A DNA stretch of 64,000 nucleotides from contig CANPIM010000007.1 in NCBI GenBank assembly GCA_947574135.1, positions 1-64,000 of the forward strand. The letters are read 5' to 3'. This document shows, in pieces, positions 3,765 through 48,353 of the stretch; the first letter of the stretch is position 1; every line of letters starts with the position of its first letter. Both the position numbers and the translations under genes were made by a program. The notes beneath the pieces were generated by a model that was given only the letters and a program-made list of their open reading frames with translations, made no database searches and was not told the origin of the DNA. Source of the DNA: an uncultured Lachnospiraceae bacterium. GTDB taxonomy: Bacteria; Bacillota; Clostridia; Lachnospirales; Lachnospiraceae.

Positions 3765-3857
3765 CTTTCTGCCTCCTCTTATCTATTTCTATCTTTAGGC
3801 TACCATATTTTACAGAAAATATCAATTCTGCCGCCCATCGGAACATTTGTTCTGTTT

Positions 3858-6800
3858 TTACCTCCTGTCCTTACACTCCGGATAAGAAAGCCTTTCCTGG
3901 CTGGAAGCCGTGGCCCGGGTAAGCTGCAGCACAATCTCGCTGAAATACCGGGGGCTCACCTCTCCCAATGAGTAGGTGTCCTTTTTCTTCACCTTGTCAT
4001 ACACATAGCTTCCCCGCTCCACGGTACCGGCCCGGTAGAATTTGGCCCCGTACACCGTGACCTCCTCGTTCTCGTCCCCCACATAGCAGCCAGAAAACTC
4101 TAATTCCACGCCCAGAGGACCGTCCTCCCGGTAAAAGGTGCTGTAAACCCCTGCGTCCTGCACGCTTCCCCGGTACCAGCCCTGGCTCTGAAGCTTTCCG
4201 GAAAGGGACAGGCCGTTTAAGAGCATGCCTCCAAAGCGAGTCAGCTCTTCCCTGGACCGCTCCTCCTCCTCCACCGCATATACCGGCCGCTCCAGCTGCT
4301 CCACAGGCTGGATCACCTCGTAATCCTCCAGCTGCTCCTTCCAGGCACCCAGGATTTCCGGCGAAAGCTCAATGGGATGAACCAGGCCAATGCGGATCTC
4401 CTCTTCCGCGGGAAGCGTATACTCCTCCTCATCCACGGTGTTAAAGCTGCCGTCCTCCATATACCGGAAAGTCTCCTTGAGAGCTCCCTCTCCATAGGCG
4501 CCCCAGATAAGCCCAATGGCAAACTGATGCATAATGGGATTCTTCACAAAGAGCTCCTGCCATTTTTCCACACTCCAGAGCCGCTCTGCGCTGATGGCCT
4601 GGGAAAGGCGAAGCTTCTGGTTGGTCACCACGGTTTTCAGCTGCTTCTTCATCTGCTTAAAGGCCTCGTTGGCCGCCTTTGCTTTTTCCTCCTCATCCCG
4701 CTTGCCGGGAGCCGGCAGGTTCTTAAGCTTCTTACCGCTCTCGTCAAAGACCTCCAGGGAGAGCTCCGGGCTTAAGACCACCCGGAAGCTTCTGCTTCCG
4801 TAATCATAGATCTGCTCCATCCCCTCATCAAAGCCCAGGTTGGGCACAATCCGATCCTCCAGCTCCTCCCGGCTGATGCCCAGCTGTTTGGCCGCATAGG
4901 AGAGGGCCTCCCCGGCCGCATTTTTTACCTGGCGGAACTTAAACTTCCGGGATATCTGATCCACCAAAAGAAGAGCCTGGGAGGATCCGTTTAGGGCCAG
5001 AGCCTTCACCGCCTCCGCCGCCATGGCGCCTCTGGAATTCTGGGGCCACTCCTGAATCTGATGGTAGATCCCCGGAACCAGCTCCTCTCCTCCGTGGATG
5101 CTGGCTGCATAGAGCACCCATTTCTTCTTGGCCTCCGCTCCGGTCTCCAGCCATTTATCAAACACCAGCCGCACACAGGCCGCCAGCTCCTTTGCATCCA
5201 GCTCCCCGGCCAGACGGGCCGCCTCCGGGCTCACACCCGGAATCCCCATATCTGCATAGGCCACCAGAATGGCCCCAAAAAGCTCCTCCCCGGCCAGGGT
5301 GCCGTCCTTTTTATGAAGGGGGGCAAAGGGAAGCTCCAAAGCCCAGGCTACCTTCCGCTTTTTGCCACCCTTTAAGATTTCCGCCGCCTCATCCTCCGGT
5401 CCCCGGGCCTTAGCCGGCGCTTCTTCTATCTCTGACTTTCTGCCCAGCAAAGCTAAAAGCTCCTCCCGAAGCTTCTTGCTCTTCTCCGCCTCCAAGGCGG
5501 CCTCCAGCTCCTCCCGGTACTGATCCACACCCCAATCCTTCAGCACCATAAGAGCCATCTCCCGCTCCTTGGATTTTTTCGACCAAAGCATGGCCTTGAT
5601 CTCCGGCTCCCACTCCCGATGCCCCTTGTAAACCGCCTCCAAAAGCTCCCGCACCTGCTTGGAGCTCTCCGAGGCACAAAGGAGCAGCCGTTCCTTATAG
5701 GTTTCCCAAAACACATCCAGCACCCGGATGCTTAAAAACCGGCATGCCACGGAGCCATTTACTGCCTTTTCCTCCAAGACTTCCTTCCAGGACTCCTTTC
5801 TCCTGGCAACAGCCTGGACACATTCATTCATAAAACGGGTCTTTGCGGACTCCGAATAATAGGCGTCATAAATCCCGGCCAGGGCCTCCATCTGATAGGA
5901 AATCCCCATGCGCTCCTCATCAAAGATATCCAGAATGGCCCCGATCTCCTGCCGATCCATGCCCTCCCGGTGGCTCTTCCTCCTGTCGGTCACAGAATAA
6001 TTCCAGAAATAATAGGCCCTCTGTCCTAAGCCCTCCACCACCAGAGCTCTTCGGTAGACGGTTTTATCTCCCTGGTCCCTTAGCTTATGAATCATTCCGG
6101 CCCGCACATGGCTTTTGTAATCCCAGCCCTCCCGAAGCTTCTCCACACAGGGGTACAGTGTCTCAATCTTTGTCTCCTCCAGAAGATACTGCAAAACCTC
6201 CTTGGCCGCCCCTGTCTGGGCGCTGCTGATTTCCCTGGCTGCCTTTATGCGAAAATCCTTGCTGTAGGAGGCCTCCATCTTTCGGAAAAGCTCCTGATTT
6301 CCCGCAGACACATTGCTTAAAAGATAGGTATACTCCTGCACGGACAGCCGGGCCGCCACCTGCTCTATGATCATGGGATACTTGGCCGCCATACGCCGCA
6401 GAGGCCCGCTGCACTTATGTCCCACGCACCAGAGGGCATACTCTGCCACCGGCACGGGAAGTCCCTCCTCCAGCTCCTTCATATGATCCGCAAACCAGGA
6501 GCTCTCCCCGATATTCTGACAGACCTCCATGGTTTTGCCAAAATCCAGGGCCATACACAGGCGCACAAGGGCCCCGAAGCGCTCCGAATGGCGGATGGCG
6601 AGGAAGGCCGTGCGGGCCAAAAGCTTTAGGGTCTGCTCCGGACACTGCTTTCCCTGGAGAATGGGCAAAATCCCCTCCATAGGCGTGTCTTTGCGGGAGG
6701 TACGCAAAAATTCCTTCAGCGCCTCCAGGTCCCCCGGAGAAAGGGGCGCGGCCACAAAGAGCTCCGCCAGGCTCTCCTCCTGGTAATTCTCCAAAAATGC

Positions 6801-7427
6801 CCCTACCTCTCTCACCTTGGGATCTCCCTTATCCTCCTCCCTGGAAAACAGGCTCTTAAGAAAGCCTCCCTGGGACTTTACCGGCTTTACACAGTAGAGA
6901 TATACGGCGGAAAGGAGGGCCCTGGCCCTGCCGTCCTTTCCCTTACACAGTTCCATGGCATCCAGAAGAAGCTTGGGATTCTTCCTTCCCGGCCGGTAGA
7001 AGGTCTCCGCCATCCGCTCAGCCCGCAGCATATACTCATAGCTCATAGCCCCTTCCGCCAGAATGGCCATGGCCTGCTCCTTGGTCAGATACTCTCTAAG
7101 CTCCCCCAGATTGCAGCCGTAGGTCAAAAGCACATAGTCGGCTGTGGAGCCCCCCACAGCCACGGTAAACTGCACAAAGCGCCTGTACTCCTCCATGCGC
7201 TTCCGCTTCATACAATGCTCCAGATAGCTTCTGCACTTTCCCGTCCGTTCCTTATCCAAAGCAGAGAAATCCTGAAATTCCGCCCTTTGAAGCAGGCCTT
7301 CCTCCCCGACCTGCCCCGGCTCTAAATACTCCTCTGCCAGCTGCCGGTTTGCCCCGCTAAGCCCCATGGCATCCAGGGTATCCAAGAGCATCTGGTAATT
7401 GCGCTCTTCATTTAAATTCATGCCCAT
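3858..7427 (-). CDS. DUF4132-domain protein (YehI/MolR-like), 1189 aa
   Basis: Large HEAT-like protein with WYRGSVQDAGVYSTFYREDGPLGVELEFSG C-terminal region. SD spacing suggests the second ATG (about 7421) may be the true start. Confidence 0.75.
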   Translation of the reverse strand: MGMNLNEERNYQMLLDTLDAMGLSGANRQLAEEYLEPGQVGEEGLLQRAEFQDFSALDKERTGKCRSYLEHCMKRKRMEEYRRFVQFTVAVGGSTADYVLLTYGCNLGELREYLTKEQAMAILAEGAMSYEYMLRAERMAETFYRPGRKNPKLLLDAMELCKGKDGRARALLSAVYLYCVKPVKSQGGFLKSLFSREEDKGDPKVREVGAFLENYQEESLAELFVAAPLSPGDLEALKEFLRTSRKDTPMEGILPILQGKQCPEQTLKLLARTAFLAIRHSERFGALVRLCMALDFGKTMEVCQNIGESSWFADHMKELEEGLPVPVAEYALWCVGHKCSGPLRRMAAKYPMIIEQVAARLSVQEYTYLLSNVSAGNQELFRKMEASYSKDFRIKAAREISSAQTGAAKEVLQYLLEETKIETLYPCVEKLREGWDYKSHVRAGMIHKLRDQGDKTVYRRALVVEGLGQRAYYFWNYSVTDRRKSHREGMDRQEIGAILDIFDEERMGISYQMEALAGIYDAYYSESAKTRFMNECVQAVARRKESWKEVLEEKAVNGSVACRFLSIRVLDVFWETYKERLLLCASESSKQVRELLEAVYKGHREWEPEIKAMLWSKKSKEREMALMVLKDWGVDQYREELEAALEAEKSKKLREELLALLGRKSEIEEAPAKARGPEDEAAEILKGGKKRKVAWALELPFAPLHKKDGTLAGEELFGAILVAYADMGIPGVSPEAARLAGELDAKELAACVRLVFDKWLETGAEAKKKWVLYAASIHGGEELVPGIYHQIQEWPQNSRGAMAAEAVKALALNGSSQALLLVDQISRKFKFRQVKNAAGEALSYAAKQLGISREELEDRIVPNLGFDEGMEQIYDYGSRSFRVVLSPELSLEVFDESGKKLKNLPAPGKRDEEEKAKAANEAFKQMKKQLKTVVTNQKLRLSQAISAERLWSVEKWQELFVKNPIMHQFAIGLIWGAYGEGALKETFRYMEDGSFNTVDEEEYTLPAEEEIRIGLVHPIELSPEILGAWKEQLEDYEVIQPVEQLERPVYAVEEEERSREELTRFGGMLLNGLSLSGKLQSQGWYRGSVQDAGVYSTFYREDGPLGVELEFSGCYVGDENEEVTVYGAKFYRAGTVERGSYVYDKVKKKDTYSLGEVSPRYFSEIVLQLTRATASSQERLSYPECKDRR

Positions 7428-7445: not shown

Positions 7446-8765
7446 TTACCGTACCAGCCTCACAGCCTCCAAAGCCCCATCCGTGAGAGCCTTCTGCGCC
7501 CCCTTGGCAAAGGTGGAGCACTGGGCCTCATAGCAGAACCTGTCATAAGCCTCATCCGTACACACATAGCCCATGGTATTTCCGTTGGTCACAGAGGAGA
7601 GCATGGTAACCCCAAAGGGAGAGGCTCCCTTCACTGCCTGACTGATAGCCACGAAATTTTCACAGCCAATTCCCACAATGCAGCAGTCCCCTATGCGCAT
7701 GGCATGACATTCAATGGGTACCTGGCCCTCCAAAAGCTCCTCCACTGTGGTATTTCCAAGAGAGCGGGTAAACCCTTCCATAAAAACGGAGCCCTCCATA
7801 ATAGACTGGGCTGCCCGAATCCTGGCATAGGGCGCCTTCGCCTCCACCAGGTCCTCATAGGTTTTCCGGGAGCTCTCCAATATGGCCGCTGCCTCCTCAT
7901 GGGTAGGGAACTCCTTCACCGGCGGCGTCACAAAGACAGAAGCGCTTCTAAGCTCTGCCTCAGACACAAAGGTCATGTGCTCCAGCACATGAAGAGCCGT
8001 CTGTCCAATGGCTCCCCCCACGCGCTTGGCCTCCCCAAAGTCCTGCCCCTCCCGGAAAAACCGGGTGGACTGATCCCCGGAGGAGCCCATCTGAAAACCA
8101 AAAATCAGAAAGGGAAACTTGTCATTTATGGTTCGCCGGATATAGCCTGGATAGTCCGCCGTATAGAAGAAATTCTCCGCGTGGAGAACCGTGGGGTGCA
8201 GAGAATAATTGACCATACAGCCCCGAAGCTCCCCTTCCTTATCCCGGATGCCTAGGACACTCACACTGGGATCGCAGGGGCCGTTTTCCGGATCGTGGCG
8301 ATTTCCCCCAATGCCCTGCTCCCTTCCGCACTGTCCGACTCCCCAGCCGATCTCCGCCTCAAAGGCCGTGTCCACAGCCTCCCGGGCAGCCTCCAGCATG
8401 AGATCCCGGATGCGGTCATTGGTTTTTGGATTCACTTCGTTCCTCTCGTCAAACCGCTCCCACTCGTTCCCCGCTGTAACCGGCCCGGAATGGGTGTGGG
8501 TACAGGAGACCGCCACATTTTTCCGGGAAATCCCCGTATGCTTTTCAATGAGCATCCGCACCTCATTGGCCCGATCCTTGCTCATGCTGATAATATCCGA
8601 GGTGATAAAGATTAGCTTTGTAGTGCCATTTGTAAAGTAATAGGCCGAAGCATATAGGGGATCGTGGGCCATAAGAGCGCTCCGGTTCTCCGGATCCGGG
8701 TAGCCCCCGGTTCTGGTCCGTCCCATGGGGGTAATATCGCGAATTGCAACTCCTGCTTTTAACAT
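7446..8765 (-). CDS. neutral/alkaline non-lysosomal ceramidase N-terminal-domain-like hydrolase
   Basis: 439 aa; AGVAIRDITP...GGY, VAVSCTHTHSGP, GSSGDQ typical of this family. Confidence 0.75.
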   Translation of the reverse strand: MLKAGVAIRDITPMGRTRTGGYPDPENRSALMAHDPLYASAYYFTNGTTKLIFITSDIISMSKDRANEVRMLIEKHTGISRKNVAVSCTHTHSGPVTAGNEWERFDERNEVNPKTNDRIRDLMLEAAREAVDTAFEAEIGWGVGQCGREQGIGGNRHDPENGPCDPSVSVLGIRDKEGELRGCMVNYSLHPTVLHAENFFYTADYPGYIRRTINDKFPFLIFGFQMGSSGDQSTRFFREGQDFGEAKRVGGAIGQTALHVLEHMTFVSEAELRSASVFVTPPVKEFPTHEEAAAILESSRKTYEDLVEAKAPYARIRAAQSIMEGSVFMEGFTRSLGNTTVEELLEGQVPIECHAMRIGDCCIVGIGCENFVAISQAVKGASPFGVTMLSSVTNGNTMGYVCTDEAYDRFCYEAQCSTFAKGAQKALTDGALEAVRLVR

Positions 8766-8796: not shown

Positions 8797-10122
8797 CTAA
8801 ATTCTCTGGGCCTCCACACCCAAAAGAGAGGCCAGCATTGCAAGCTCCCCGGAATAGTCCCCGTAGGCCACGGCAAAATGCTGTCCCGCATAGGCCTTAC
8901 AGAGCTCCTTTATATCCCCGTCAAGCCTTACGTTCAGAGCCGGCATATGGCCGCCCCTTGGCTCTGTCTCTATGCCCGTGCCCGTGCCGTAGAGGAGATG
9001 ATAGGATCCCACATCTTCCACCAGACGGGCCCAGGTAATCCGCTCCGGACGAAGCACCCCGCAGACCTGGAGGCCGTGAAAGCCCGGAAGATTCTCAAAG
9101 GGCAGGATCTTTGCCTTGTCCTTGGCCATGGTAAAGGGAAGAAAGCCGCAGGGAGAAAATTGCAGGGTGTTCTCCCAGTGGGTAAGGGAATCCCCGTACC
9201 ACACCGTCTGCCCGGACAGATAGGACAGCATAAGCATGGTAACGGTCACAGGCGTGTCTCCCTCGCAGGCTGCCACGATCCCGTCCTCCGCCAGCAAAGA
9301 CAGGGATACACAGGGCACCACCTGATATTCCTTGGAAAGCTCATACTGACACTTGACATTCACTGCTGCCCAGCTCTTTTCCTCACAGAACTCCCGAAGG
9401 GCCACATAGAGAGCCATGGTTTTGTGAAGAAGCTCCGGCGTCACCCGCTCTCCCCAGGAGGAAAGCTTTGCCAGCCGCTCCTTAGCCGCCTCCACCGGCT
9501 CCGCCGGCAGGCTCTCCGCCCTTCGGATCAGAGAATAGGTGTCCATCTGCTCGATCTCCGGGCCAATGCAATACCGCATAAGCACATGATCAAAGGTTCC
9601 CGTATAAATGCTCATGGAGGTGTAGCCAAAGAGCCCGATTTTTGCATAAAACAGGGCATCCGCCGCCCCGGCTGCCCGGGAAAAACGGGAAATTTCCTCC
9701 AAAGTCTCCGGGGCCTGAAAGCTCCTTAGAAGCGTGGGACAGGGAAGCCCCAGCCGTCTTACCACGCCGGCAAACATGCTGGCGGACACGTAGGAGCCCG
9801 TGCTTTCCTTTCTGCCCTCCACCTCCTCTAAGGGGAAGCCCCAGAACATACAGGGCCTTCCGTGAAGCTCCTTTAGGGCGGCCATCACCACATTGCATTC
9901 CACCCAGGTAGCCAGCACCACCAGGGCGGCACAGCAGTCCTGCTCTCCCAGAAGCCTACGCACCTGGGCCACTGCCTCCTTTTCCGTAACCGCGATTTTC
10001 CCCGGCTCCACCTCTATCAGAGGCTGATCCCCAAGGCTTTTCACAATCGCTCTCTGAATCGCCCATGTGTTGTCGCAAAGATAGTCCCCGTGTCCCAGCC
10101 AGATTACACCTGTTTTTCTCAT
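8797..10122 (-). CDS. L-fucose/L-arabinose isomerase-like family protein
   Basis: 441 aa; overall architecture and EKSWAAVNVKCQYE...CEGDTPVTVTMLMLSYLSGQ motif of FucI/AraA-like proteins. Confidence 0.7.
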   Translation of the reverse strand: MRKTGVIWLGHGDYLCDNTWAIQRAIVKSLGDQPLIEVEPGKIAVTEKEAVAQVRRLLGEQDCCAALVVLATWVECNVVMAALKELHGRPCMFWGFPLEEVEGRKESTGSYVSASMFAGVVRRLGLPCPTLLRSFQAPETLEEISRFSRAAGAADALFYAKIGLFGYTSMSIYTGTFDHVLMRYCIGPEIEQMDTYSLIRRAESLPAEPVEAAKERLAKLSSWGERVTPELLHKTMALYVALREFCEEKSWAAVNVKCQYELSKEYQVVPCVSLSLLAEDGIVAACEGDTPVTVTMLMLSYLSGQTVWYGDSLTHWENTLQFSPCGFLPFTMAKDKAKILPFENLPGFHGLQVCGVLRPERITWARLVEDVGSYHLLYGTGTGIETEPRGGHMPALNVRLDGDIKELCKAYAGQHFAVAYGDYSGELAMLASLLGVEAQRI

Positions 10123-10197: not shown

Positions 10198-10226
10198 ACT
10201 ATATCAAAATACTTCCTTATTTTCAA
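10198..10226 (-). promoter_or_regulatory. candidate promoter for the isomerase-like/ceramidase-like/DUF4132 unit
   Basis: Reverse strand TTGAAA-N17-TATAGT overlapping the 3' end of the SWIM gene. Confidence 0.6.
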
Positions 10227-12237
10227 GAGATACCTGCCAGCTTTTGGCCCGCTCTAAGGAAAGCCGCTCCCGGCAGGCCCGAAGATAGCGGCAAAGCGTT
10301 CCCAGCTCCTCCAAAACCGGCCCGGAATCAAATTCCATCTGATGGCGCCTGGCCTTTAGAAGCTCCTCCACCCGTAAAAACCCTTTCCCGGCCACATGAA
10401 GTCCCAGCCGTTCTCCCTCCTCCCCCAGCTCTCCCAGGCGCTCCAGGAGCTCCTCGGGCAGGGAAAACAGGCCGGCGGAAAAGAGATCCGTAAGCTGTCT
10501 AGTCGCCTCCCGCTCATACCGCTCCATGGTTTTCAGCACAGCCGGCGGAGGAAGCTTTCTCTGCTCTCTGCTGCTCTTTTCCAATGAAAGATCCGCCTCC
10601 GGACCCGATTGCTGAAAGAATTCAATGGGATACAGGCAGAGCCTCCCCTCCTCCAGGTAAAGAAAGCCGAAAAACACCAGGGCTCCCCGGGACCTTTTTT
10701 GAAGCCGCTGCTCCAGACGCTCCAAAAGCTGTATCACCAGACGCTCCTCCCTGGTATACCGCAGGGAAAGAAACAGGGCTCTGCCCTCCCTGTCAAAAAG
10801 GCTCCAGGAAAATCTCTGCTGTACCTGATCAAAGGAGCTCTCCCCCCACCTTTCTGCTCCCACCAGGGCCAGACGCTCCGCCCCCTCCTGCCTGAAATAA
10901 TTCTCCAGCAATCGCTCATAGTCCCAGACAATCATCTCCTGCACAGCCTCTGCCTCCAGGCTCTTTTTCCCCACAATCTCTCCCTTTGTCTCCTGGCTTA
11001 CGGACAGACGGCCCCCGGCCGCAGCCCGGGCTCCCTTAAGCTTAAATTCCGTTCCCATCATCTGCTCCCGGGTGCAGCCCAGTCCCCAGGGAGCCCCGCT
11101 GTTTTCCACCGCCCTCCGGGCCCGCTTGCCCACCCCCTCATAGAATACCGGCCGGGCGTCGGTCCAGGTATAAAAGACCCGTTTTTCCGTCTCCAGAAAA
11201 TAATAGATTTCCCCTGCATACCCGGTCCTGCTGGAAAAAGATCGGGCCCCCAGACCCATGAGGCTTAAGTTTCCCACAAGCTCATAGGTATCCCGAAAGC
11301 GGCCGGCCAGAGCACTTTGCTCCTCCTGGGTTTCGGCTCTTAAAAGACGCCTGCACCGCTCATACAGGGAAAGCATCCGGGCACACAGCTCCTCATCCCG
11401 AAAGGCGGCGGACCGCTGAAAATACTGCCGGTACTGGCCGGCCGCCTCCCGGAGACCATTCTCCAGGCTGGCCAGTCCGGCCCGGTGACACATAAGGGCC
11501 AGCCGCTCCAGGCTTTCCGGGGTCTCCGGAGACTGCCGGCACATGCCCGTATTCATCTGGTGCTCCAGGGCCTCCTCCACAGCCTTTAAGGCCTCCTCTA
11601 TAAGCTCCCGGTCAAGAGAGCTCTCCGTCTCCAGAAGCCCCTGGAGCTTCGAAAGAGAAACCTTTTCCTTTTGAACCTGAAAGGCCAGAAGCGCCTGGGC
11701 CTTGTGGGGACAGAGCTCTCTGCTGTGACAGGTGCAGGTAGAATACTCCAAAGGCTCAAGAAGCTTCACCACTGCCTGCTCCCAGGGAAGCCACACGGTC
11801 ACAATGGAGCTCTCCTCCACCTGGGGCAGCTCTCCCACCCGGATATGCTCCAAAAACTGGCGGTAGCGCCGAAGGCCGCAGGCTTTCTTTAGCTTTTCCA
11901 CAGGGATCTCCAAAAGCTCTGTAAATAGCTGCCCTTCCTCGGACTCTGACTCCGGCTCCGGCTTCTCCTCTCCCTGCCTTTTCCGAAGCCATAATATGGC
12001 TGTCATCACATGCCGGCACATACTCCGGGAAGGACAGCTGCAGCTGCTCTCCCCAAGGGGCAGGCGTATCAGGCAGGTTTCCTCCCTAAGAGCCACCTGG
12101 ATCTCCTCCCCTTTTGAGGTTTCCACAGGCTCCTCCTGCTCCAAATCCTTATACGCCCGCTTTACGATCCCCTTATTGCTCAGGCCAATGAGATACTCAT
12201 CATCCACCTGTCCCACAAAAGCCCTTACTTCCTTCAT
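10204..12237 (-). CDS. SWIM zinc-finger protein with two SWIM motifs (YehQ-like)
   Basis: 677 aa; two CxCx6CxH motifs: CSCPSRSMCRH and CTCHSRELCPH. Confidence 0.85.
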   Translation of the reverse strand: MKEVRAFVGQVDDEYLIGLSNKGIVKRAYKDLEQEEPVETSKGEEIQVALREETCLIRLPLGESSCSCPSRSMCRHVMTAILWLRKRQGEEKPEPESESEEGQLFTELLEIPVEKLKKACGLRRYRQFLEHIRVGELPQVEESSIVTVWLPWEQAVVKLLEPLEYSTCTCHSRELCPHKAQALLAFQVQKEKVSLSKLQGLLETESSLDRELIEEALKAVEEALEHQMNTGMCRQSPETPESLERLALMCHRAGLASLENGLREAAGQYRQYFQRSAAFRDEELCARMLSLYERCRRLLRAETQEEQSALAGRFRDTYELVGNLSLMGLGARSFSSRTGYAGEIYYFLETEKRVFYTWTDARPVFYEGVGKRARRAVENSGAPWGLGCTREQMMGTEFKLKGARAAAGGRLSVSQETKGEIVGKKSLEAEAVQEMIVWDYERLLENYFRQEGAERLALVGAERWGESSFDQVQQRFSWSLFDREGRALFLSLRYTREERLVIQLLERLEQRLQKRSRGALVFFGFLYLEEGRLCLYPIEFFQQSGPEADLSLEKSSREQRKLPPPAVLKTMERYEREATRQLTDLFSAGLFSLPEELLERLGELGEEGERLGLHVAGKGFLRVEELLKARRHQMEFDSGPVLEELGTLCRYLRACRERLSLERAKSWQVSLENKEVF

Positions 12238-12255
12238 ATGCCCTCTCCCCTCTGC

Positions 12256-13413
12256 CTAGCCGTTCATCACATTGCCCATAAAATCTCCCAGAGCCTCCGG
12301 GGTCATGGCCCCCACATAGGCCCCAAGGGCCGCCAGCCGCTGGGCCATCTGCCGATCATAGGCGGGATTGGCATCCCTGTCAAGAGCCGTGAGGCAGATA
12401 AGCTTGGCCCCGCTCTCGATGATGCTCTTGCTTATCTGCAGGAGACCCTGGGGACCGCTCCCCTCGCACAGGTCAGAGATCAGCACCACCATGGTCCGGT
12501 GGGGATATTCCACCAGGCTTTCACAATACTGGAGAGCTCCTGCAATATAAGTGCCGCCTCCCAGCTGAACGCTCATAAGAGTGGCCACCGGATCCTCCAG
12601 ATGAGCGCTTAGATCTACCACCTGGGTGTCAAAAATTACCAATCGGGTATCCAGCATGGGTAGCTTGGCGAAAATTCCCGCCAAAACTGCGCTGTGAATG
12701 ACAGAATCCAGCATGGATCCGCTCTCATCCACTGCAAGGATCACCCGCCACTGGCTGTATCGTCTGGTTCTCCCGTAAAAATAAACCCGCTCCAGACAGA
12801 TCCGCTGATTCTCCTCATCATAATGCTTAAGATTTCGCCTAATGGTCTTTTTTATATCCAGATTGCGGACCGAGGGGATGGGATGATCTGCATTTCTGTC
12901 AATTTTTCCCAGAAGAGACCGTCGAATATCCTTCTTAAGCTTCTCCCCAATCTCCTGAGCCACCTGCCTTACAATCTGTCTGGCCGCCTCCAGTACCTCC
13001 CCCTTCATAAGATGCTTCAGCTGCAGAATGGTCTTTAAAAGCTCCTGGTTGGGCTCCAGCTTTTCCAGAACCTCCTTATCGGTCAAAAGCTCTGTCATTC
13101 CGTAATTTTCCAGGGCATGGCGCTCCAGAATCTCCACTGTCTCCTTGGGAAACAGCTTGCGAATGCGGGTGATCCAGGTGGCTGCCGTCAGACGGCTGGC
13201 TCCGGTGCCACCCTCCCGCCGCACATCCTCTCCCTGCTCCCGGTCGTAGAGAAAGTCCAGCGCCTCCTCCAGATCCACACAGGAAATCCCGTTTTCCATG
13301 GCCGTCTCTTCCCCCATAGAGCCCCCGGAAAAGTGCAGCTGATCCGCCGCGTATTTTCCCAGTATAAGCCTCCACCGGTTCAGCCGGCCGGTATCTGTCC
13401 CCTTCATATCCAT
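12256..13413 (-). CDS. VWA-domain (MIDAS) protein (YehP-like)
   Basis: 385 aa; MIDAS DESGSM in ILAVDESGSMLDSVIHSAVLAGI. Confidence 0.85.
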   Translation of the reverse strand: MDMKGTDTGRLNRWRLILGKYAADQLHFSGGSMGEETAMENGISCVDLEEALDFLYDREQGEDVRREGGTGASRLTAATWITRIRKLFPKETVEILERHALENYGMTELLTDKEVLEKLEPNQELLKTILQLKHLMKGEVLEAARQIVRQVAQEIGEKLKKDIRRSLLGKIDRNADHPIPSVRNLDIKKTIRRNLKHYDEENQRICLERVYFYGRTRRYSQWRVILAVDESGSMLDSVIHSAVLAGIFAKLPMLDTRLVIFDTQVVDLSAHLEDPVATLMSVQLGGGTYIAGALQYCESLVEYPHRTMVVLISDLCEGSGPQGLLQISKSIIESGAKLICLTALDRDANPAYDRQMAQRLAALGAYVGAMTPEALGDFMGNVMNG

Positions 13414-15824
13414 TCCTCCATCCGTTTCCCGGCATAGGCATCCAGTTTCTCCCCAAACTCGTACTCCAGGGGCGATACCACAAGGCCGCTCAAAAGCTTC
13501 TCCTTGCCCACTCCGTGAAGAGCCGCCGCCTGCCCGGCCAGCCTGTCAATCTCCAGAGGCGTAAAATAGGAAAATGCCCGGCGAAGTTCGGGCAAAAGCC
13601 CCAAAAAGGCCTCCGGCTCCAGATCCCCCAAAAGCTCGTCGATCAGATACAAAAAACGCTTCCGGACAAAGACCAGATCCCGGGCCGTATAAAACAGACC
13701 CCGAAGAAAGGCCGCGCTGTTTAGCTGCTGCTCCCCGGCGCTTCTAAGATACCCGGAGGCTGCCTTAAAAATCCGCTCCTCCCAGCCCGCCTCATATCCA
13801 TACAAAAGGCCCAGCACAGCTCCCTCCAGGCCCGGACATACTTTCCCGGTCTCAAGGAGACGACCAAAAGCCTCCGCCAAAATTGGCCGAAGCTTTAAAA
13901 AATCCCTTTTTCCTGTGATCTGGTACAGGGACAGACAGCTCTCCATACAGGTCTGCTCCTTCTCCTTATCCACCTGTCCCATGGAGGGAAGGAGCTGAAT
14001 AATCTTCTGGAAGCAGCTGCCCAGAAGCTCCCGAAGCTCCGAAAAGGCATTCACCTGGTATAGCTCCTGGAGCTCATAGAGCATCCGCATATGGGAGAAG
14101 GCCTCGGTCAGGGAAAAGAAATCCCCGTCTGCAGCCAGAACCTGCCCAAGCTTCCCTCCCAGCCGGTTCTGCTCCTCCAGAAAGCCCATGAGAAAGCCCT
14201 GGGTCAAAAGCCTGGCCGCCTCCCGGCTGCTGGCACTCTTTAAGGATCGGCTGTTCATCTGGCTTTTGGCCGCCTCCTCCACCGTGCCCCCGGCCATGGA
14301 CACATCCACCAGGGCGGAGAGCACCTGGCTGGAGAAGCGATAGGTCCATACCTCCCGAATCCGGCTTTTGTCCCGCCGATTCAAAAGATCCGCTCCCTTT
14401 TTCCGTTTGGCAAAGCCTGTGTCCAGAAATTCCAGCTGATAGAGAAACCGGCTGGCTGCCAAATGCTTTTTCTTGGCAAAGAGCTCCAGGGTAATCTCCT
14501 GCTGCGTGGCTGCCTGGATCTTCAGGCCGAATTTCCCGCACTGCCGCTCAAAATCATGGAGAATGGGAGGCCGAAGGGCATCCTCCACAAGCTTTCCCAC
14601 CTGACGCCCCCTGTTAAGCCCCTGTAAAATTCGTAAGGGCATATCTGTGGACAGGGTACACTCCCCCTTCACAAAGGAAGAAAGAGCCGCATCCTGAAGC
14701 TCATAGAGCCCCGGCTCCTCCTTTCCCCTAAGAACCGCCAGCCCCCGGGCCATGGAGAGGGCGCAGATGGCATCATAGGAGGAAATGGCTTCTTTTTTTT
14801 GCCGCGCCTGCCTTCCGGTCCGGACCAGCTGCTCCAGAACCGCCCTCCCGTAGGCCCCTTTTGGCTCCTCCTGCTCACAAAGGCCTTCCCAAACTCTCTG
14901 GTAAAATCCGGGGGAGGGCATGCCGCTGGCATAGCCGTTCAGGGCGTCCGCCGCCTCCATGGAATAGGCCAGGGGATACACCCCCTGCTCCTCCCCGGTA
15001 AGCCTGTGAAGCTCCACCGGCTCCCCCGTATACACAAGGTAGGATCCCTCCCGGGATTTCTCAAGCTTTAAAAGCTCCAGAAGCCCAGGGGTATGAAAAC
15101 CCCCGGTAACTGCCAGGACACGCCGGTGCTCCCGGGAGGCCCGGGCAATCTGCTCTGCCATGTAGCGCTCCCTGAGGATGCACCCCTCCCTTAGAAGCTC
15201 CTCCCTTGGGGAATTCTCCCGGGACAGCCCGCAGTAGGTGAGCATCTGGCGGATAAAGGCCTCCGTGTCCAGATAAAGACCACGGATCTCAAAATATTTC
15301 TCCCACAGCTCGTCAAAGCTTCGAAGCCCTGCCTTTTCACAGATACGCTTTAGGAATTTCCCCCGGCTCAGGAGATAATCGTCATTGTAGGTCTGCTTCT
15401 CTCCCTCCCTACGCACTCCCGTATTCTCCGCCGTGCCCAAAAGGATCTCTCCATAGGGCAGATCCATAAACCGGGCCGGGATGCTCCGCTTCCGGGCCTC
15501 CCGCAGGGCCACCAGCTCCGGAGAACAGTCCAGAAAGGGGTAATAGCACTTATAGTCCTCCTTTTCCTCCCCCAAAAGCCCTTTTGCGTCTCTGTAAAAA
15601 TAGTACAGGGCCACGGGAGCCCTGGTATCCGGGTGTGCCAGCACCTCTGTGAGCTCCTGGGCATTTTCCGGCCCCTCGATAAGGATACAGTCCGGCTCAT
15701 AGGCTTCTATGGCCCTCTTCAGATGATAGGCGCAGGCCGGGCTGTGATGGCGCACGGGAAAATAGGCCACAGGCCGGCTTTTGTCTAGCGCAGGTGCTTC
15801 CTGGCTTCGTAATAGCTGTTCCAT
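13404..15824 (-). CDS. DUF5682 family protein (YehM-like; possible TIKI/EreA/ChaN-superfamily)
   Basis: Likely start MEQLLRSQ at 15824 (ORF open to 15941). VRHHSPACAYHLKRAIEAYEPDCILIEGPENAQELTEVL and LAVTGGFHTPGL motifs. Confidence 0.75.
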   Translation of the reverse strand: MEQLLRSQEAPALDKSRPVAYFPVRHHSPACAYHLKRAIEAYEPDCILIEGPENAQELTEVLAHPDTRAPVALYYFYRDAKGLLGEEKEDYKCYYPFLDCSPELVALREARKRSIPARFMDLPYGEILLGTAENTGVRREGEKQTYNDDYLLSRGKFLKRICEKAGLRSFDELWEKYFEIRGLYLDTEAFIRQMLTYCGLSRENSPREELLREGCILRERYMAEQIARASREHRRVLAVTGGFHTPGLLELLKLEKSREGSYLVYTGEPVELHRLTGEEQGVYPLAYSMEAADALNGYASGMPSPGFYQRVWEGLCEQEEPKGAYGRAVLEQLVRTGRQARQKKEAISSYDAICALSMARGLAVLRGKEEPGLYELQDAALSSFVKGECTLSTDMPLRILQGLNRGRQVGKLVEDALRPPILHDFERQCGKFGLKIQAATQQEITLELFAKKKHLAASRFLYQLEFLDTGFAKRKKGADLLNRRDKSRIREVWTYRFSSQVLSALVDVSMAGGTVEEAAKSQMNSRSLKSASSREAARLLTQGFLMGFLEEQNRLGGKLGQVLAADGDFFSLTEAFSHMRMLYELQELYQVNAFSELRELLGSCFQKIIQLLPSMGQVDKEKEQTCMESCLSLYQITGKRDFLKLRPILAEAFGRLLETGKVCPGLEGAVLGLLYGYEAGWEERIFKAASGYLRSAGEQQLNSAAFLRGLFYTARDLVFVRKRFLYLIDELLGDLEPEAFLGLLPELRRAFSYFTPLEIDRLAGQAAALHGVGKEKLLSGLVVSPLEYEFGEKLDAYAGKRMEEWI

Positions 15825-16900
15825 AAGCCGCCCTCTTTTCCCCCTTTGTCCCGCACCACAGTCTGGAAATAGCTGCGCAGCCGCTCCAAATCCTCCTGAT
15901 TTTCCTTCTGCACTGCTCCCACCAGGTTTTCCACCAGACACCCCAGATCCATCCGGGAGTCCCCATAGTAATAGGCCGTCATCATGGTCTGATAATAGAC
16001 GGAAACCGCCTCCGCCGTGCTCATGACCGCATTCGGCTTATCAATCCGGTGCCCCATGGAGGATACGCCCTCCCGGAGCTCATGGTAGGTGGAGGCCAAA
16101 AGCTCCGCCACGTCCTCATCCACAGGCATGGAAATCTGGTTCTCCAGAGCCAGCGCCTCCACCTCGTTGATAATAATCTGCTTTTCCAGGGCCACGTCCC
16201 GCACCGGCATGACAGTCTCAAAATTAAACCGGCGCTTCAGGGCGCTGCTCATCTCATTGACCCCCTTATCCCGGGTGTTGGCAGTCCCTATAACGTTAAA
16301 GCCCGCCTTGGCAAAGAGCAGCCCCTCCTCCCCAAGCTCCGGCACATGGAGCACCTTGTCGCTGAGCACGCTGATCAGGCTGTCCTGAATCTCTGCCGGG
16401 GTCCGGGTGATCTCCTCAAACCGGGTGAGAATCCCCTGCTCCATGCCCACATAGAGGGGCGAGGGCACCAGGGCCTCCCGCACCGGTCCCTTGGCCAGCA
16501 AAAGGGCATAATTCCAGCTGTATTTGATCATATCCTCCGTGGTGCCGGCAGTGCCCTGGATGGTGTTGGTGCTGGTGCCGCTGATGGCTGCGGACAATAG
16601 CTCTGAGAGCATGGTCTTGGCCGTTCCCGGCTCTCCCACCAGCATCAGGCCCCGGTTTCCGGCCAAGGTGATAATACACCGCTCCACCAGGGCGTCGTTT
16701 CCCAGATATTTTTTCCGGACAGGGATCTCCTCCCCCTCCCAAATGAGGGGCTTATGGCTCCCCAGAAGAAAGGTCCGCACCGCCTGAGGGGACATTTTCC
16801 AGTTTCTGGGCCTCTTTCCCGTATCCAGCGCCCGAAGCGCCCGAAGCTCCCTTGCATAGCGCACCTCCACAGGCGGCTTTATCTCCACAACTCGCTCCAC
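15785..16900 (-). CDS. MoxR-family AAA+ ATPase (YehL-like)
   Basis: 371 aa; Walker A GEPGTAKT, FEEITRTPAEIQDSLISVLSD Walker B region, sensor NVIGTANTRDKGVNEMSSALKRRF. Confidence 0.92.
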   Translation of the reverse strand: MERVVEIKPPVEVRYARELRALRALDTGKRPRNWKMSPQAVRTFLLGSHKPLIWEGEEIPVRKKYLGNDALVERCIITLAGNRGLMLVGEPGTAKTMLSELLSAAISGTSTNTIQGTAGTTEDMIKYSWNYALLLAKGPVREALVPSPLYVGMEQGILTRFEEITRTPAEIQDSLISVLSDKVLHVPELGEEGLLFAKAGFNVIGTANTRDKGVNEMSSALKRRFNFETVMPVRDVALEKQIIINEVEALALENQISMPVDEDVAELLASTYHELREGVSSMGHRIDKPNAVMSTAEAVSVYYQTMMTAYYYGDSRMDLGCLVENLVGAVQKENQEDLERLRSYFQTVVRDKGGKEGGLWNSYYEARKHLR

Positions 16901-16921
16901 AGCGGTTCTCCTTTCCCCGGC

Positions 16922-17818
16922 CTAGGCATCCAGGCAGATAAGCTCATATTCCTTTGTCCCGTATCCCAGCTCTGCCGCCGCGTCAATGGTGTGAACCCCA
17001 TGCCGGGACTCCACACGCTCCAGGAAATGATCCCGTCCCGGATCCTTGGACTGGTAAATGAGATCCATGCAGGCCTTGTCAAGCGCCACGGGATCCAGGG
17101 AAGAAAGGATGCCGATATCCTTCATGCAGGGGTCCTCCGCCACGGCGCAGCAGTCACAGTCCACAGACAGATTGCACACCATATTTACAAAAGCAAGCTT
17201 TCCCTTGAAATATTCCACAACGCTCCCCGCCGCGTCAGCCATGGCCTCACAGAAAATATCCTGCGGCGCCATATGGCTCCACACAATATTCTGATCGCTG
17301 GTAAAGCCTGCGGAGTGAATCAGAGCCTTTCCCGCCGAGGAAGCACAGCCAATGGCCAGCTGCTTTAAGGCTCCGCCGTAGCCCCCGGCCGGGTGTCCCT
17401 TAAAATGTGACAGCACCAGCATGGAATCATAGGCCTCAATATTCTTTCCCACATAGTTTTCCTTTAGCACCTTGCCTTTGGGAATGGAAAGCTTCCGATC
17501 CGGCCCCTGGGCATCCATGAGATCCACCTGGAAATACTGGGTCCAGCCGTGCTCCTCCATGAGATGCTGATGCTTTTCAGTAGAATTTCTGGCTCCGTCA
17601 TAGGCTGTGTTGCATTCCACCACGGTTCCCTGCACCAGCTCCACCATGGGACGCATAAATTCCGGCCGAAGATAATTCTGATTTCCCTTTTCTCCGGAAT
17701 GCACCTTCACGGCCACCTTTCCCGGCAGCTCTATTCCCAGAGCCTTGTACATTTTTATGACAGCTTCCGGGGTAATCTCCTTTGTGAAATAAACCTTTGC
17801 TTTTTCCATACTCTTCAC
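16922..17818 (-). CDS. DUF362-domain protein
   Basis: 298 aa; KVHSGEKGNQNYLRPEF, VLSHFKGHPAGGYGGALKQLAIGCASS; Cys-rich CDCCAVAEDPC. Confidence 0.8.
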   Translation of the reverse strand: MKSMEKAKVYFTKEITPEAVIKMYKALGIELPGKVAVKVHSGEKGNQNYLRPEFMRPMVELVQGTVVECNTAYDGARNSTEKHQHLMEEHGWTQYFQVDLMDAQGPDRKLSIPKGKVLKENYVGKNIEAYDSMLVLSHFKGHPAGGYGGALKQLAIGCASSAGKALIHSAGFTSDQNIVWSHMAPQDIFCEAMADAAGSVVEYFKGKLAFVNMVCNLSVDCDCCAVAEDPCMKDIGILSSLDPVALDKACMDLIYQSKDPGRDHFLERVESRHGVHTIDAAAELGYGTKEYELICLDA

Positions 17819-17899: not shown

Positions 17900-17928
17900 A
17901 TTATAAATCCAGCAAGGGAAGATGTCTA
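17900..17928 (-). promoter_or_regulatory. candidate promoter for the DUF362-MoxR-DUF5682-VWA-SWIM operon
   Basis: Reverse strand TAGACA-N17-TATAAT. Confidence 0.6.
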
Positions 17929-17953: not shown

Positions 17954-18703
17954 TCATTTTCCTTCCCCCAGAAGCCGCTCTAACAGATACTCCCTGTGGT
18001 TTAAAAACATCTCCGTTACCTGATAGCTCTCCGTCTCCTCATAGGAGACCGGATGAAGCTGCCCCTCATCAAAGGAGAGAAGCTCCGCTCCCGGGATTCC
18101 CAGCAAAATAGGGGAATGGCTGGCAATGAGGAACTGACTGCCTCCCAGGGACAGACGGTGAATGCACAGAAGAAGGGTCAGCTGTCTCTGGGGAGAAAGG
18201 GCGGCCTCCGGCTCATCCAAAAGGTAAAACCCCTTCTCCGTAAATCGATTCTGCATCAGCCCAAGAAAGCTCTCCCCGTGGGACTGTTCATGGGGGGAAC
18301 GGCCCCCGTACTGCCGATAATAAATCTCCGGGGGCGTCACATCCCGGTACTCCTCCGCCTGGGTAGCCACATTGTAGAAGCTCTCCGCCCGGAGGAAAAA
18401 GCTGTCTTTTGCCCTCTGATAGCCCTTTCGCAGGGTAAGTCCCTCATAGAGCCTGGAATGGGTTTCCCGGGTGGCAAAGCGAAAATTTTTGCTGCCTCCC
18501 TCGGGATTGAGCCCGTAGGCTGTGGCAATGGCCTCCAGCAGGGTGGATTTCCCGGTTCCGTTTTCCCCCACGAAAAAGGTAATGCTTCTGGTAAAGGTCA
18601 GCTCCTCCAGCTGCTCTAAAGCCGCAATCCGGCGCAGATAAGAATCCTCGTCTATTTTCGTCCAGTCTATATGTAATCCATCCACAAACAATTTGCTCAG
18701 CAT
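17954..18703 (-). CDS. AAA/ABC-type ATPase (RecF/SMC-like predicted ATP-binding protein)
   Basis: 249 aa; FFVGENGTGKSTLLEAIA Walker A, LLDEPEAALSPQRQL, SHSP. Confidence 0.85.
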   Translation of the reverse strand: MLSKLFVDGLHIDWTKIDEDSYLRRIAALEQLEELTFTRSITFFVGENGTGKSTLLEAIATAYGLNPEGGSKNFRFATRETHSRLYEGLTLRKGYQRAKDSFFLRAESFYNVATQAEEYRDVTPPEIYYRQYGGRSPHEQSHGESFLGLMQNRFTEKGFYLLDEPEAALSPQRQLTLLLCIHRLSLGGSQFLIASHSPILLGIPGAELLSFDEGQLHPVSYEETESYQVTEMFLNHREYLLERLLGEGK

Positions 18704-20432: not shown

Positions 20433-21770
20433 TTACCTTTCCTTATCACCGCCGGCCAATCTGCGAAAAATGGATTTTCCCTCCTTGATGGTCTCCAGCA
20501 CCTGAATCTCCCCAAGCTCCCCTAGGGAACTTGTCAGGGGATTTCTGTCCAGAATCACCAGATCTGCCAGCTTTCCCTCTAAAATACTGCCCTTTTTTCT
20601 TTCCTCAAATATCTCTATGGCGCTGCCCATGGTCACCACGCCCAAAGCCTCCTCCACAAGGCGCCTCTGCCCCTCTTGGGACAGGTCCCCCCTTTTCTCC
20701 AGCTGCCGGCTTACCGCCTGCTGCACCAGCCCCAGCATATGGGGCGCTGCCTTTCTCCCACACGCTCTGTTCCCCGGTTCTCCGCCAAAGCAAGAACACT
20801 TGTTCGAATTTATGTCACAGCTTCCCTGTCGGCAATGCCGGTGGTAGCGCAGCCGCTCCGGAAGGGATAGGGGGAACCGGGCTTCCGGGGAAGGCCTTGG
20901 ACCGGGAATTACATCCAGCCTAAGCCTCCCCACAAGACTGGCCAAATGAAGCATCTCATACTCCCCGGCCTCTGTCACAGCCTCTGCAAGGGTGGTGATT
21001 CCCCGGGAGGCAAACAGATCCACGGCCCGCTCCACCCCCTGAAGCGCCTCCCGCAGGGAGGGCCCCTCCATTCTCTCCACAGCCTGAAAAAAGGCCGTTC
21101 CCCTTAAAACGCCTGTGGGCATTCTGGTTTCGGGACAGCGCTCAATCCGTCCCCCGGGAGGATCCGGTGTAAACCTTCCAATCCCCAACCGGAGAAGGCC
21201 CTGGCTGTTAAGGATTCCCGCCTGCCCGGAGGCGTACACCAGACAGATAGGTCTCCCCCGGCTGATTCGGTCCAAATCCTTCCGTTCCAATCCCGGTCCT
21301 CTCCCATAACCCTCCGGCTCATAGCCCAGGGCCACAAACCAGGCCCCCGGCTTGCGGCCTCTCCCTGCCTCCTGCCAGGAAAGCTCCCTAAGCAAAGCTT
21401 CCCTGGTATTGCAAAAGCCCCCGGGCGCCGCATTTCCAAACATATTTTCATAGGCCATAGCCATGAAAGACGCATTTGTACAAATAAATCCCGGCAGCAT
21501 GGTCCTTCCCTCCAGGTCCACCACCCGGGCGCCGGCGCGCAACAGCCCGCGTATCTCTTCCGTAGAGCCCACCCGCCGTATCCTTTTTCCGCACAGCAGC
21601 AGAGCCTCCGCCTCAGGCCTCCCCCTGTCCATGGTAAGAATCTGTCCGTTTATATATGCCTTTTGTCTCAAGCCGTCACTTCCATCTTGTAAATTCTTCC
21701 ATGTAGTTTTTCCCGGCCTTTTCTCTATCATACACCAAAAGAGAAAACAGGGCAAGATTCCAGCGTGCAA
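20433..21770 (-). CDS. YtcJ-like amidohydrolase-fold protein, predicted catalytically inactive
   Basis: 445 aa; YINGQILTMD...GRTMLPGF and GSILEGKLADLVILDRNPL are family hallmarks, but the HxH region reads ICTNASF. Confidence 0.7.
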   Translation of the reverse strand: MHAGILPCFLFWCMIEKRPGKTTWKNLQDGSDGLRQKAYINGQILTMDRGRPEAEALLLCGKRIRRVGSTEEIRGLLRAGARVVDLEGRTMLPGFICTNASFMAMAYENMFGNAAPGGFCNTREALLRELSWQEAGRGRKPGAWFVALGYEPEGYGRGPGLERKDLDRISRGRPICLVYASGQAGILNSQGLLRLGIGRFTPDPPGGRIERCPETRMPTGVLRGTAFFQAVERMEGPSLREALQGVERAVDLFASRGITTLAEAVTEAGEYEMLHLASLVGRLRLDVIPGPRPSPEARFPLSLPERLRYHRHCRQGSCDINSNKCSCFGGEPGNRACGRKAAPHMLGLVQQAVSRQLEKRGDLSQEGQRRLVEEALGVVTMGSAIEIFEERKKGSILEGKLADLVILDRNPLTSSLGELGEIQVLETIKEGKSIFRRLAGGDKER

Positions 21771-47387: not shown

Positions 47388-48353
47388 CTAACACACATTT
47401 TTACCTTTCAGGCGCTCCTCCACCTGCTCCATGGTAGGCATGGCCGGGATACCGCCCCGCTTCTCCACGCAGAGGCTTGCCACGGCATTCCCAAATCTGG
47501 CAAAGCGTTTTGCCTCCTCAAGGGTTACCTCCTTAGGATTCTTGCCGCTTTCGGCCAGCTGATACAAAAATCCTCCCCAGAAGGAATCTCCCGCACCGGT
47601 GGTATCCACCACCTGGCTTAAAAATCCCGGAACCACGGCTCCCCCCTCCTGGGTGCAAACGTAAGCCCCGTCCTTCCCCAGGGTTACGGCCACCAGAGAA
47701 ACCCCCTTATGGAGAAGAACCTTCGCAGCCTCCTCCGGCTCTTCCTGATCCGTCAAAAGTCCCGTCTCCTCGTCGGAAATCTTCATCACGTCCACAAAAT
47801 CCAGAACGCTCCGCATGCCCGCCATGGCCTCCTCCCTGGATCTCCACAGAAGGGCCCGGTAATTGGGGTCATAGGAAATGATCTTCCCCATCTCCTTTGC
47901 CTTTTCCAGGGCAAACATGGTGGCACCTCGGCAGGGCTCGTCTGTGAGAGACAAGGAACCCACATGGAAAATCCGGGTATCCCCTAATATCTCCAGATTT
48001 ACCTCCTCCCTAGTCAGGCAGGTATCCGCTCCAGGCTTCCGGGCAAAGGAGAACTGACGTTCTCCTTGAGCATTCAGGCTTACAAAGGCCAGGGTGGTAA
48101 ACACCTTTGGATCCACCACCAGTCCCCTGGTGTCAATGCCCGCCTGCTCTAAGGTCTCCTTTAAAAAGGCCCCGTGCATATCGTCCCCTACCTTTCCCAA
48201 AAAGGCGGTCTTGCGCCCCAGCCTGGTAATGGCCGCCAGCGCATTGGCCGGCGCTCCCCCGGGATTCTGTTCAAAAATCCGCATCCCTGCCTCTGACTGT
48301 CCGCTTGGGGTAAAGTCAATCAACAGCTCTCCTAATGCCGCTACATCATACAT
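47388..48353 (-). CDS. PfkB-family carbohydrate kinase (fructokinase-like)
   Basis: 321 aa; GELLIDFTP, GGAPANALAAITRLG, DTTGAGDSFWGGFL. Confidence 0.9.
   Translation of the reverse strand: MYDVAALGELLIDFTPSGQSEAGMRIFEQNPGGAPANALAAITRLGRKTAFLGKVGDDMHGAFLKETLEQAGIDTRGLVVDPKVFTTLAFVSLNAQGERQFSFARKPGADTCLTREEVNLEILGDTRIFHVGSLSLTDEPCRGATMFALEKAKEMGKIISYDPNYRALLWRSREEAMAGMRSVLDFVDVMKISDEETGLLTDQEEPEEAAKVLLHKGVSLVAVTLGKDGAYVCTQEGGAVVPGFLSQVVDTTGAGDSFWGGFLYQLAESGKNPKEVTLEEAKRFARFGNAVASLCVEKRGGIPAMPTMEQVEERLKGKNVC

Follow-up and report, generated by a model that had tools for sequence, protein, structure and literature searches.

A recurrent bacterial gene module of MoxR-like ATPase, DUF5682, VWA and SWIM proteins, in which the DUF5682 N-domain is a likely member of the TIKI/TraB/erythromycin-esterase superfamily

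The window analysed here is the whole stretch of 64,000 nucleotides at positions 1 to 64,000 of contig CANPIM010000007.1 (assembly GCA_947574135.1), from an uncultured Lachnospiraceae bacterium. Its minus strand carries a run of genes that reads, 5' to 3', DUF362, MoxR, DUF5682, VWA, SWIM, isomerase-like, ceramidase-like and DUF4132, within which a module related to the yeh genes of Escherichia coli can be recognized. The features of the run are as follows:

17900..17928, minus strand: promoter-like TAGACA-N17-TATAAT, 5' of the DUF362 gene, with 11/12 consensus matches
16922..17818, minus strand: DUF362 gene (Pfam DUF362 3.7e-47), first gene of the local run, outside the conserved module
15785..16900, minus strand: MoxR-like AAA+ ATPase, yehL homologue (Pfam AAA_5 4.4e-34)
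13404..15824, minus strand: DUF5682, yehM homologue (Pfam 8e-105), likely TIKI/TraB/Ere superfamily N-domain at about residues 16-322, then a long all-helical region
12256..13413, minus strand: VWA protein, CoxE-like, yehP homologue (Pfam VWA_CoxE 8.6e-45)
10204..12237, minus strand: SWIM zinc-finger protein, yehQ homologue (Pfam SWIM 2.8e-4, barely above cut-off)
8797..10122, minus strand: isomerase-like gene, with a weak sulfoquinovose isomerase/fucose isomerase match; local insertion, outside the module
7446..8765, minus strand: neutral/alkaline ceramidase-like gene (Pfam 6.9e-13); local insertion, outside the module
3858..7427, minus strand: DUF4132 protein, yehI homologue (Pfam 3.2e-52), generally the fifth member in this clade

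A first-pass annotation of this DNA had described five tightly linked minus-strand genes, DUF362 to SWIM, with the promoter-like TAGACA-N17-TATAAT in front of them. The genes lie at the coordinates it gave, the promoter-like site is present at 17928-17900, and the family assignments agree with Pfam, whose hidden Markov models support DUF362, MoxR-like AAA+, DUF5682, VWA, SWIM and DUF4132. DUF362 and MoxR are separated by a gap of 21 base pairs (bp), MoxR and DUF5682 overlap by 40 bp, given a DUF5682 start at the ATG at 15824, DUF5682 and VWA overlap by 10 bp, and VWA and SWIM are 18 bp apart. The run continues past SWIM with the isomerase-like gene (81-bp gap), the ceramidase-like gene (31 bp) and the DUF4132 gene (18 bp). 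A further promoter-like sequence, TTGAAA-N17-TATAGT with an extended TG, lies at 10226-10198, just 5' of the isomerase-like and ceramidase-like pair. Promoter-like sites were called by consensus matching alone, and a consensus match is no proof of function.

Gene neighbourhoods were surveyed in one genome per species with MoxR-family patterns only, such that the partner genes were not built into the search. Among the 62 loci with at least 9 kilobases 3' of MoxR, DUF5682 is present in 61, VWA in 59, SWIM in 58 and DUF4132 in 55. The loci come chiefly from Lachnospiraceae, Oscillospiraceae, Ruminococcus and Clostridium, and further examples are found in Bacillus, Priestia, Brevibacillus, Bacteroidales, Tannerella and one spirochaete. 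Given that the linkage recurs across several phyla, it is not a product of chance, and the recurrent co-occurrence across bacteria that the first-pass annotation required is borne out. The gene order permutes while the set is kept: DUF4132 can be first, last or in between, the order VWA-SWIM-DUF4132-MoxR-DUF5682 is found in 2 surveyed loci, and a plasmid of Agrobacterium vitis carries MoxR-DUF5682-DUF4132-VWA-SWIM; the copy on an Iodobacter plasmid is permuted as well. Therefore, the unit has a four-gene core of MoxR, DUF5682, VWA and SWIM, usually joined by DUF4132 as a fifth member. The membership suggested by the first-pass annotation stands for the four core genes and falls short for DUF4132, a real fifth member that lies beyond the interval it had marked. 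DUF362, which it had included, is in none of the 62 loci and is also missing from 40 Clostridia loci.

Other neighbours were tried as components and rejected. The isomerase-like and ceramidase-like genes are absent from all 62 MoxR-found loci and stand between SWIM and DUF4132 only in the window. The small ABC/AAA_21-type ATPase gene at 17954-18703, upstream of the run, has counterparts in only 3/62 loci and is taken to be a lineage neighbour; the same ATPase type lies directly upstream of MoxR in L087 (7210-7974) and in L095 and L096 (9157-9912). Mean pairwise identity is 0.71 for MoxR, 0.58 for VWA, 0.43 for DUF5682 (0.52 for its N-domain), 0.33 for DUF4132 and 0.31 for SWIM, and divergence is correlated among the five proteins (r 0.83-0.95, computed without a background or housekeeping control). 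DUF5682 occurs in 3/148 genomes of a class sample, 13/196 of an order sample and 28/299 of a family sample.

Several individual loci have unusual structures. MoxR and DUF5682 are parted by a gene for a UvrD-like helicase in two Lachnospiraceae genomes, L103 (11187-14753) and L106 (11213-14566). In L124 (2597-6169) MoxR and DUF5682 form a single open frame of 1190 amino acids, which could reflect a genuine fusion or, alternatively, an indel introduced by assembly where the two genes overlap by 40 bp. One TGA interrupts DUF5682 in Lachnoclostridium sp. An138 (L034/L091), and the DUF5682 match is split over two contigs in G399. In G515, G445 and G598 the match lies in pieces inside long open frames of 810-928 amino acids, which suggests insertions. 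In L147, MoxR and DUF5682 are found amid many tandem BspA-type leucine-rich repeat genes, and VWA and SWIM are missing from the stretch.

The module also exists in a second arrangement, consisting of SWIM, a HEAT-repeat protein, MoxR, DUF5682 and VWA, which is seen in many genomes from the family and order to which the window belongs. A MoxR tree splits the two arrangements perfectly (support 100/100), and both are found together in four genomes (G314, G505, G571 and G602). Comparison of the second-clade HEAT protein with DUF4132 gave 52%, generic helical-repeat similarity only.

The likeness to E. coli yehL/M/P/Q and yehI noted in the first-pass annotation is confirmed, given that the same set of families is involved. 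E. coli K-12 holds yehI (DUF4132), yehK, yehL (MoxR), yehM (DUF5682), yehP (VWA) and yehQ (SWIM), and YehL is annotated as a putative member of the MoxR family. At least 80% of yehL-Q is present in 5181 of 5426 complete E. coli genomes (95%), and 5340 of 5342 placements are chromosomal. The E. coli conjugative plasmid NZ_CP103756.1 carries an IS26-rich resistance region with a captured chromosomal block from yehI to yohO. The transposon TnMB1860 has been described in the metG/DUF4132/yeh region of ST131 (PMC9334617). A search of the open-access literature found no paper naming DUF5682 and none assigning a function to yehL/M/P/Q.

The candidate enzyme of the module is DUF5682. An alignment of 41 DUF5682 sequences contains invariant RHxS, Glu, RExxM and GxxH motifs, and four residues of the N-domain can be matched to H50, E78, R261 and H289, the catalytic residues of EreC (PMC7979712):

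15747..15749, minus strand: DUF5682 His26 (RH-x-S), invariant in 41/41; aligned with TraB GTxH; matches EreC H50
15675..15677, minus strand: DUF5682 Glu50 (L-I-E-G-P), invariant in 41/41; matches EreC E78
15171..15173, minus strand: DUF5682 Arg218 (RExxMA), invariant in 41/41; matches EreC R261 by order and spacing
15093..15095, minus strand: DUF5682 His244 (GGxH), invariant in 41/41; matches EreC H289

The order of the residues is identical and their spacing approximate, with 24 residues from H26 to E50 and 26 from R218 to H244, versus 28 and 28 in EreC. Pfam gave weak ChaN and TraB matches for DUF5682, and a superfamily test was therefore run, in which an N-domain alignment of 40 sequences was compared by hhalign with TraB-family proteins gathered by family search. 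DUF5682 matches the TraB profile over the whole domain (96.4%, E 1.3e-9, 202 columns), and the alignment places the His, Glu, Arg and GxxH of both families in register; control comparisons with the same profile gave 1.2% for VWA and 0.2% for MoxR. A sequence search of the PDB with DUF5682 profiles returned noise only. The C-terminal half of DUF5682 is mostly helical in the predicted structure, and because helical repeats dominated the hits of a Foldseek search with the full-length model, AlphaFold2 was run on the N-domain by itself (predicted local distance difference test score 88.5). Foldseek against the PDB then ranked Tetrahymena TraB chains 1-3 (7w5z_E, 8b6h and 8bqs; the PDB name of the Tetrahymena chain is 'TraB family protein'), EreC 4-5 and Bcr135, of the Ere family, 6-8, and the next fold was unrelated (E 0.36). 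The profile result and this rank order suggest that the DUF5682 N-domain likely belongs to the TIKI/TraB/erythromycin-esterase superfamily. Of the earlier description of DUF5682 as 'effector or scaffold', the idea of an output role is retained; the protein need not be left as merely unknown, given an N-domain that probably falls in a hydrolase superfamily.

The motor proteins are strongly conserved. Walker A (GEPGTAKT), sensor-1 (GTANT) and the Arg finger (ALKRRF) of the ATPase are kept in 40/40 sequences. The VWA domain, at residues 159-373 of 385, has a complete metal ion-dependent adhesion site (MIDAS; DESGS, GGGT and SD), of which DxSxS, T and D are kept in 40/40 VWA sequences. In NorQ-NorD, the VWA protein is described as placing a finger in the pore of the ATPase and twisting at its linker, and the pair inserts iron (PMC13036017). 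The first-pass annotation had proposed, in general terms, remodelling by MoxR and VWA with DUF5682 as the output, and this is supported. The remaining core protein of the window has two CxCx5CxH fingers, seen as motifs in the alignment:

12010..12042, minus strand: first SWIM finger (C66, C68, C74, H76)
11704..11736, minus strand: second SWIM finger (C168, C170, C176, H178)

Two fingers are present in 51 of the 65 full-length SWIM proteins counted. A domain of about 100 amino acids occurs twice in the window protein (residues 212-291 and 577-665), and a copy of it is a separate small gene 3' of SWIM in 24 other loci. SWIM and DUF4132 are the fastest-diverging proteins of the set, which would fit target recognition by one or the other.

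The reading proposed here, with a probability of roughly one half, is an ATP-driven cytosolic remodelling machine with a dedicated output, in which DUF5682 would be a TIKI-fold hydrolase activated or matured by a MoxR-VWA motor and targeted by SWIM. The module proteins contain no transmembrane-like stretch (maximum KD19 1.53), so that the machine should be cytosolic. In the complex that we envisage, the MoxR-like ATPase would form a ring, and the CoxE-type VWA protein may dock in it and grip a partner through its MIDAS, by analogy with NorQ-NorD. Each ATP cycle would twist or stretch DUF5682 via its helical C-terminal region, and the twisting would open, activate or mature the N-terminal TIKI/Ere-fold site (His26, Glu50, Arg218 and His244), which is predicted to hydrolyse a peptide or ester bond. 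SWIM and a HEAT-type protein, DUF4132 or its counterpart, may recognize and position the target. Extending this, the machine may be a new class of energy-dependent hydrolase, probably a protease, in which an intracellular TIKI-fold enzyme is gated by MoxR-VWA rather than by an unfoldase of the Clp/Lon/FtsH type, with SWIM and HEAT-type proteins choosing targets in many bacterial phyla, an idea offered tentatively and judged possible at best.

Four observations weigh against the proposed machine. The Walker B of the ATPase is R-x-E-E in 40/40 sequences, a family-wide variant that keeps the acid pair with Glu for the first Asp. The AAA_3 (MoxR) model of Pfam is not reached (18.5 bits versus a cut-off of 27), and because the protein passes AAA_5 and not AAA_3, 'MoxR-like' is the accurate name. 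The scores of Foldseek ranks 1-8 are weak (E 1.6e-3 to 0.3, template-modelling score about 0.3, root-mean-square deviation 10-20), such that the fold search alone is not decisive and the superfamily assignment leans on the profile result as well as the rank order. Finally, the assisting Glu of the TIKI 2His/2Glu site (EreC E47) is missing, with Pro/Gly at -3 of His26. TraB proteins likewise have no second Glu, so that its absence counts chiefly against an Ere-like mechanism and less against superfamily membership.

In another use of the same motor, MoxR and VWA would act as a maturase: like CoxD-CoxE and NorQ-NorD, they would load a cofactor, such as a metal, into DUF5682 or into a client not linked to the module, and the mature enzyme would no longer depend on the ATPase. 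The CoxE type of the VWA protein and iron insertion by the VWA-linked twist of NorQ-NorD (PMC13036017) fit this scheme. Tiki proteases are metal-dependent (PMC6254334), but two members of that superfamily, EreC and RRSP, need no metal, no metalloenzyme besides DUF5682 is linked to the module, and SWIM and DUF4132 are left unexplained; cofactor insertion is considered rather unlikely. Under gating and cofactor maturation alike, YehM would be the protein through which YehL and YehP exert their effect. The first-pass annotation had also allowed for biological conflict. In such a system, SWIM or DUF4132 would sense an invader, MoxR-VWA would set a threshold and DUF5682 would be the effector. MoxR-VWA conflict systems do exist (PMC7159879, PMC8195603), among them ternary ones with peptidase effectors (PMC7159879, PMC12839542), but here one enzyme is fixed rather than swapped, none is fused to VWA, and Pfam finds no VMAP, iSTAND or beta-propeller component in the module proteins (bpMoxR 22.3 bits versus a cut-off of 27); the main text of the ternary-system papers makes no mention of SWIM, TraB, Tiki or Yeh proteins. 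The module is patchy in the window's family (28/299 genomes), but it is present in 5181/5426 E. coli genomes and there is nearly always chromosomal. The copy on a mobilizable plasmid of Iodobacter adjoins a type I restriction system, but 110 neighbours are mostly metabolic with few defence matches (counted without a control set). The rapid divergence of SWIM and DUF4132 (identity 0.31 and 0.33 versus 0.71 for MoxR) would suit an anti-invader role, but MoxR, DUF5682, VWA, SWIM and DUF4132 have no PADLOC match at 1e-3, and no IMG/VR viral contig carries the module. A defence role is disfavoured and unlikely, given that distribution and neighbourhood lend it no support. The sole 'phage' record with DUF5682, MT835988.1, is an unverified 14-kilobase faecal 'Bacteriophage sp.' that may be a mislabelled bacterial contig.

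The module might instead serve in DNA damage or nucleic-acid stress, with SWIM fingers binding DNA and the machine remodelling or cleaving a DNA-bound protein. DNA binding has been proposed for some SWIM fingers, and 2 genomes have a UvrD-like helicase gene placed between MoxR and DUF5682. The DUF4132 operon drA0165-drA0166 of Deinococcus radiodurans is strongly up on DdrO depletion (PMC8533742), but this link rests on DUF4132, which is also found outside the module. Regions upstream of the operon show no enrichment of LexA-type boxes (1/73 versus 4/393 in controls), such that SOS control of the operon was rejected, and the E. coli yeh region has no such box; a DNA-damage role is considered very improbable. 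The window itself holds three perfect copies of GAAC-N4-GTTC, the core of the Firmicutes LexA box, versus 0.49 expected, at 3841-3852, directly 3' of the DUF4132 stop, 20794-20805 and 48051-48062.

What appears to be new here is the placement of the DUF5682 N-domain in the TIKI/TraB/erythromycin-esterase hydrolase superfamily, giving a candidate enzyme to a gene set that had none. Although found in almost all E. coli and across several bacterial phyla, the module is unstudied, and the superfamily placement and the named residues to mutate open its function to direct tests in a laboratory strain. If the proposed machine is real, an ATP-gated TIKI-fold enzyme would join the few known outputs of MoxR-VWA motors.

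The module shares features with several known systems. With the MoxR-vWA ternary conflict systems (VMAP, iSTAND, beta-propeller and TERNS3) it shares a core of MoxR-like ATPase and vWA protein with extra linked proteins, but it has no VMAP, iSTAND or propeller and no vWA-fused effector, and its enzyme is constant between loci. NorQ-NorD and CoxD-CoxE likewise have a MoxR-like ATPase and a CoxE-family VWA protein with complete MIDAS in one operon. Whereas those pairs serve nitric oxide reductase or CO dehydrogenase, the constant third gene here encodes a predicted TIKI-fold protein, and the module adds SWIM, DUF4132 and an E-E Walker B. DUF5682 resembles the TIKI/TraB/ChaN/Ere superfamily in the profile match over its whole N-domain and in a GTxH-like His, Glu, Arg and GxxH His in the same order; it differs in its long helical C-terminal region, its linkage to an ATPase motor, its predicted cytosolic location and its missing assisting Glu. 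In E. coli yehI-L-M-P-Q, DUF4132 is 5' of the core, whereas in the window it is 3' of SWIM and set apart by two metabolic genes, and identity between the two is 49% for MoxR and 25% for DUF5682; the same five families, and the order MoxR-DUF5682-VWA-SWIM, are common to both.

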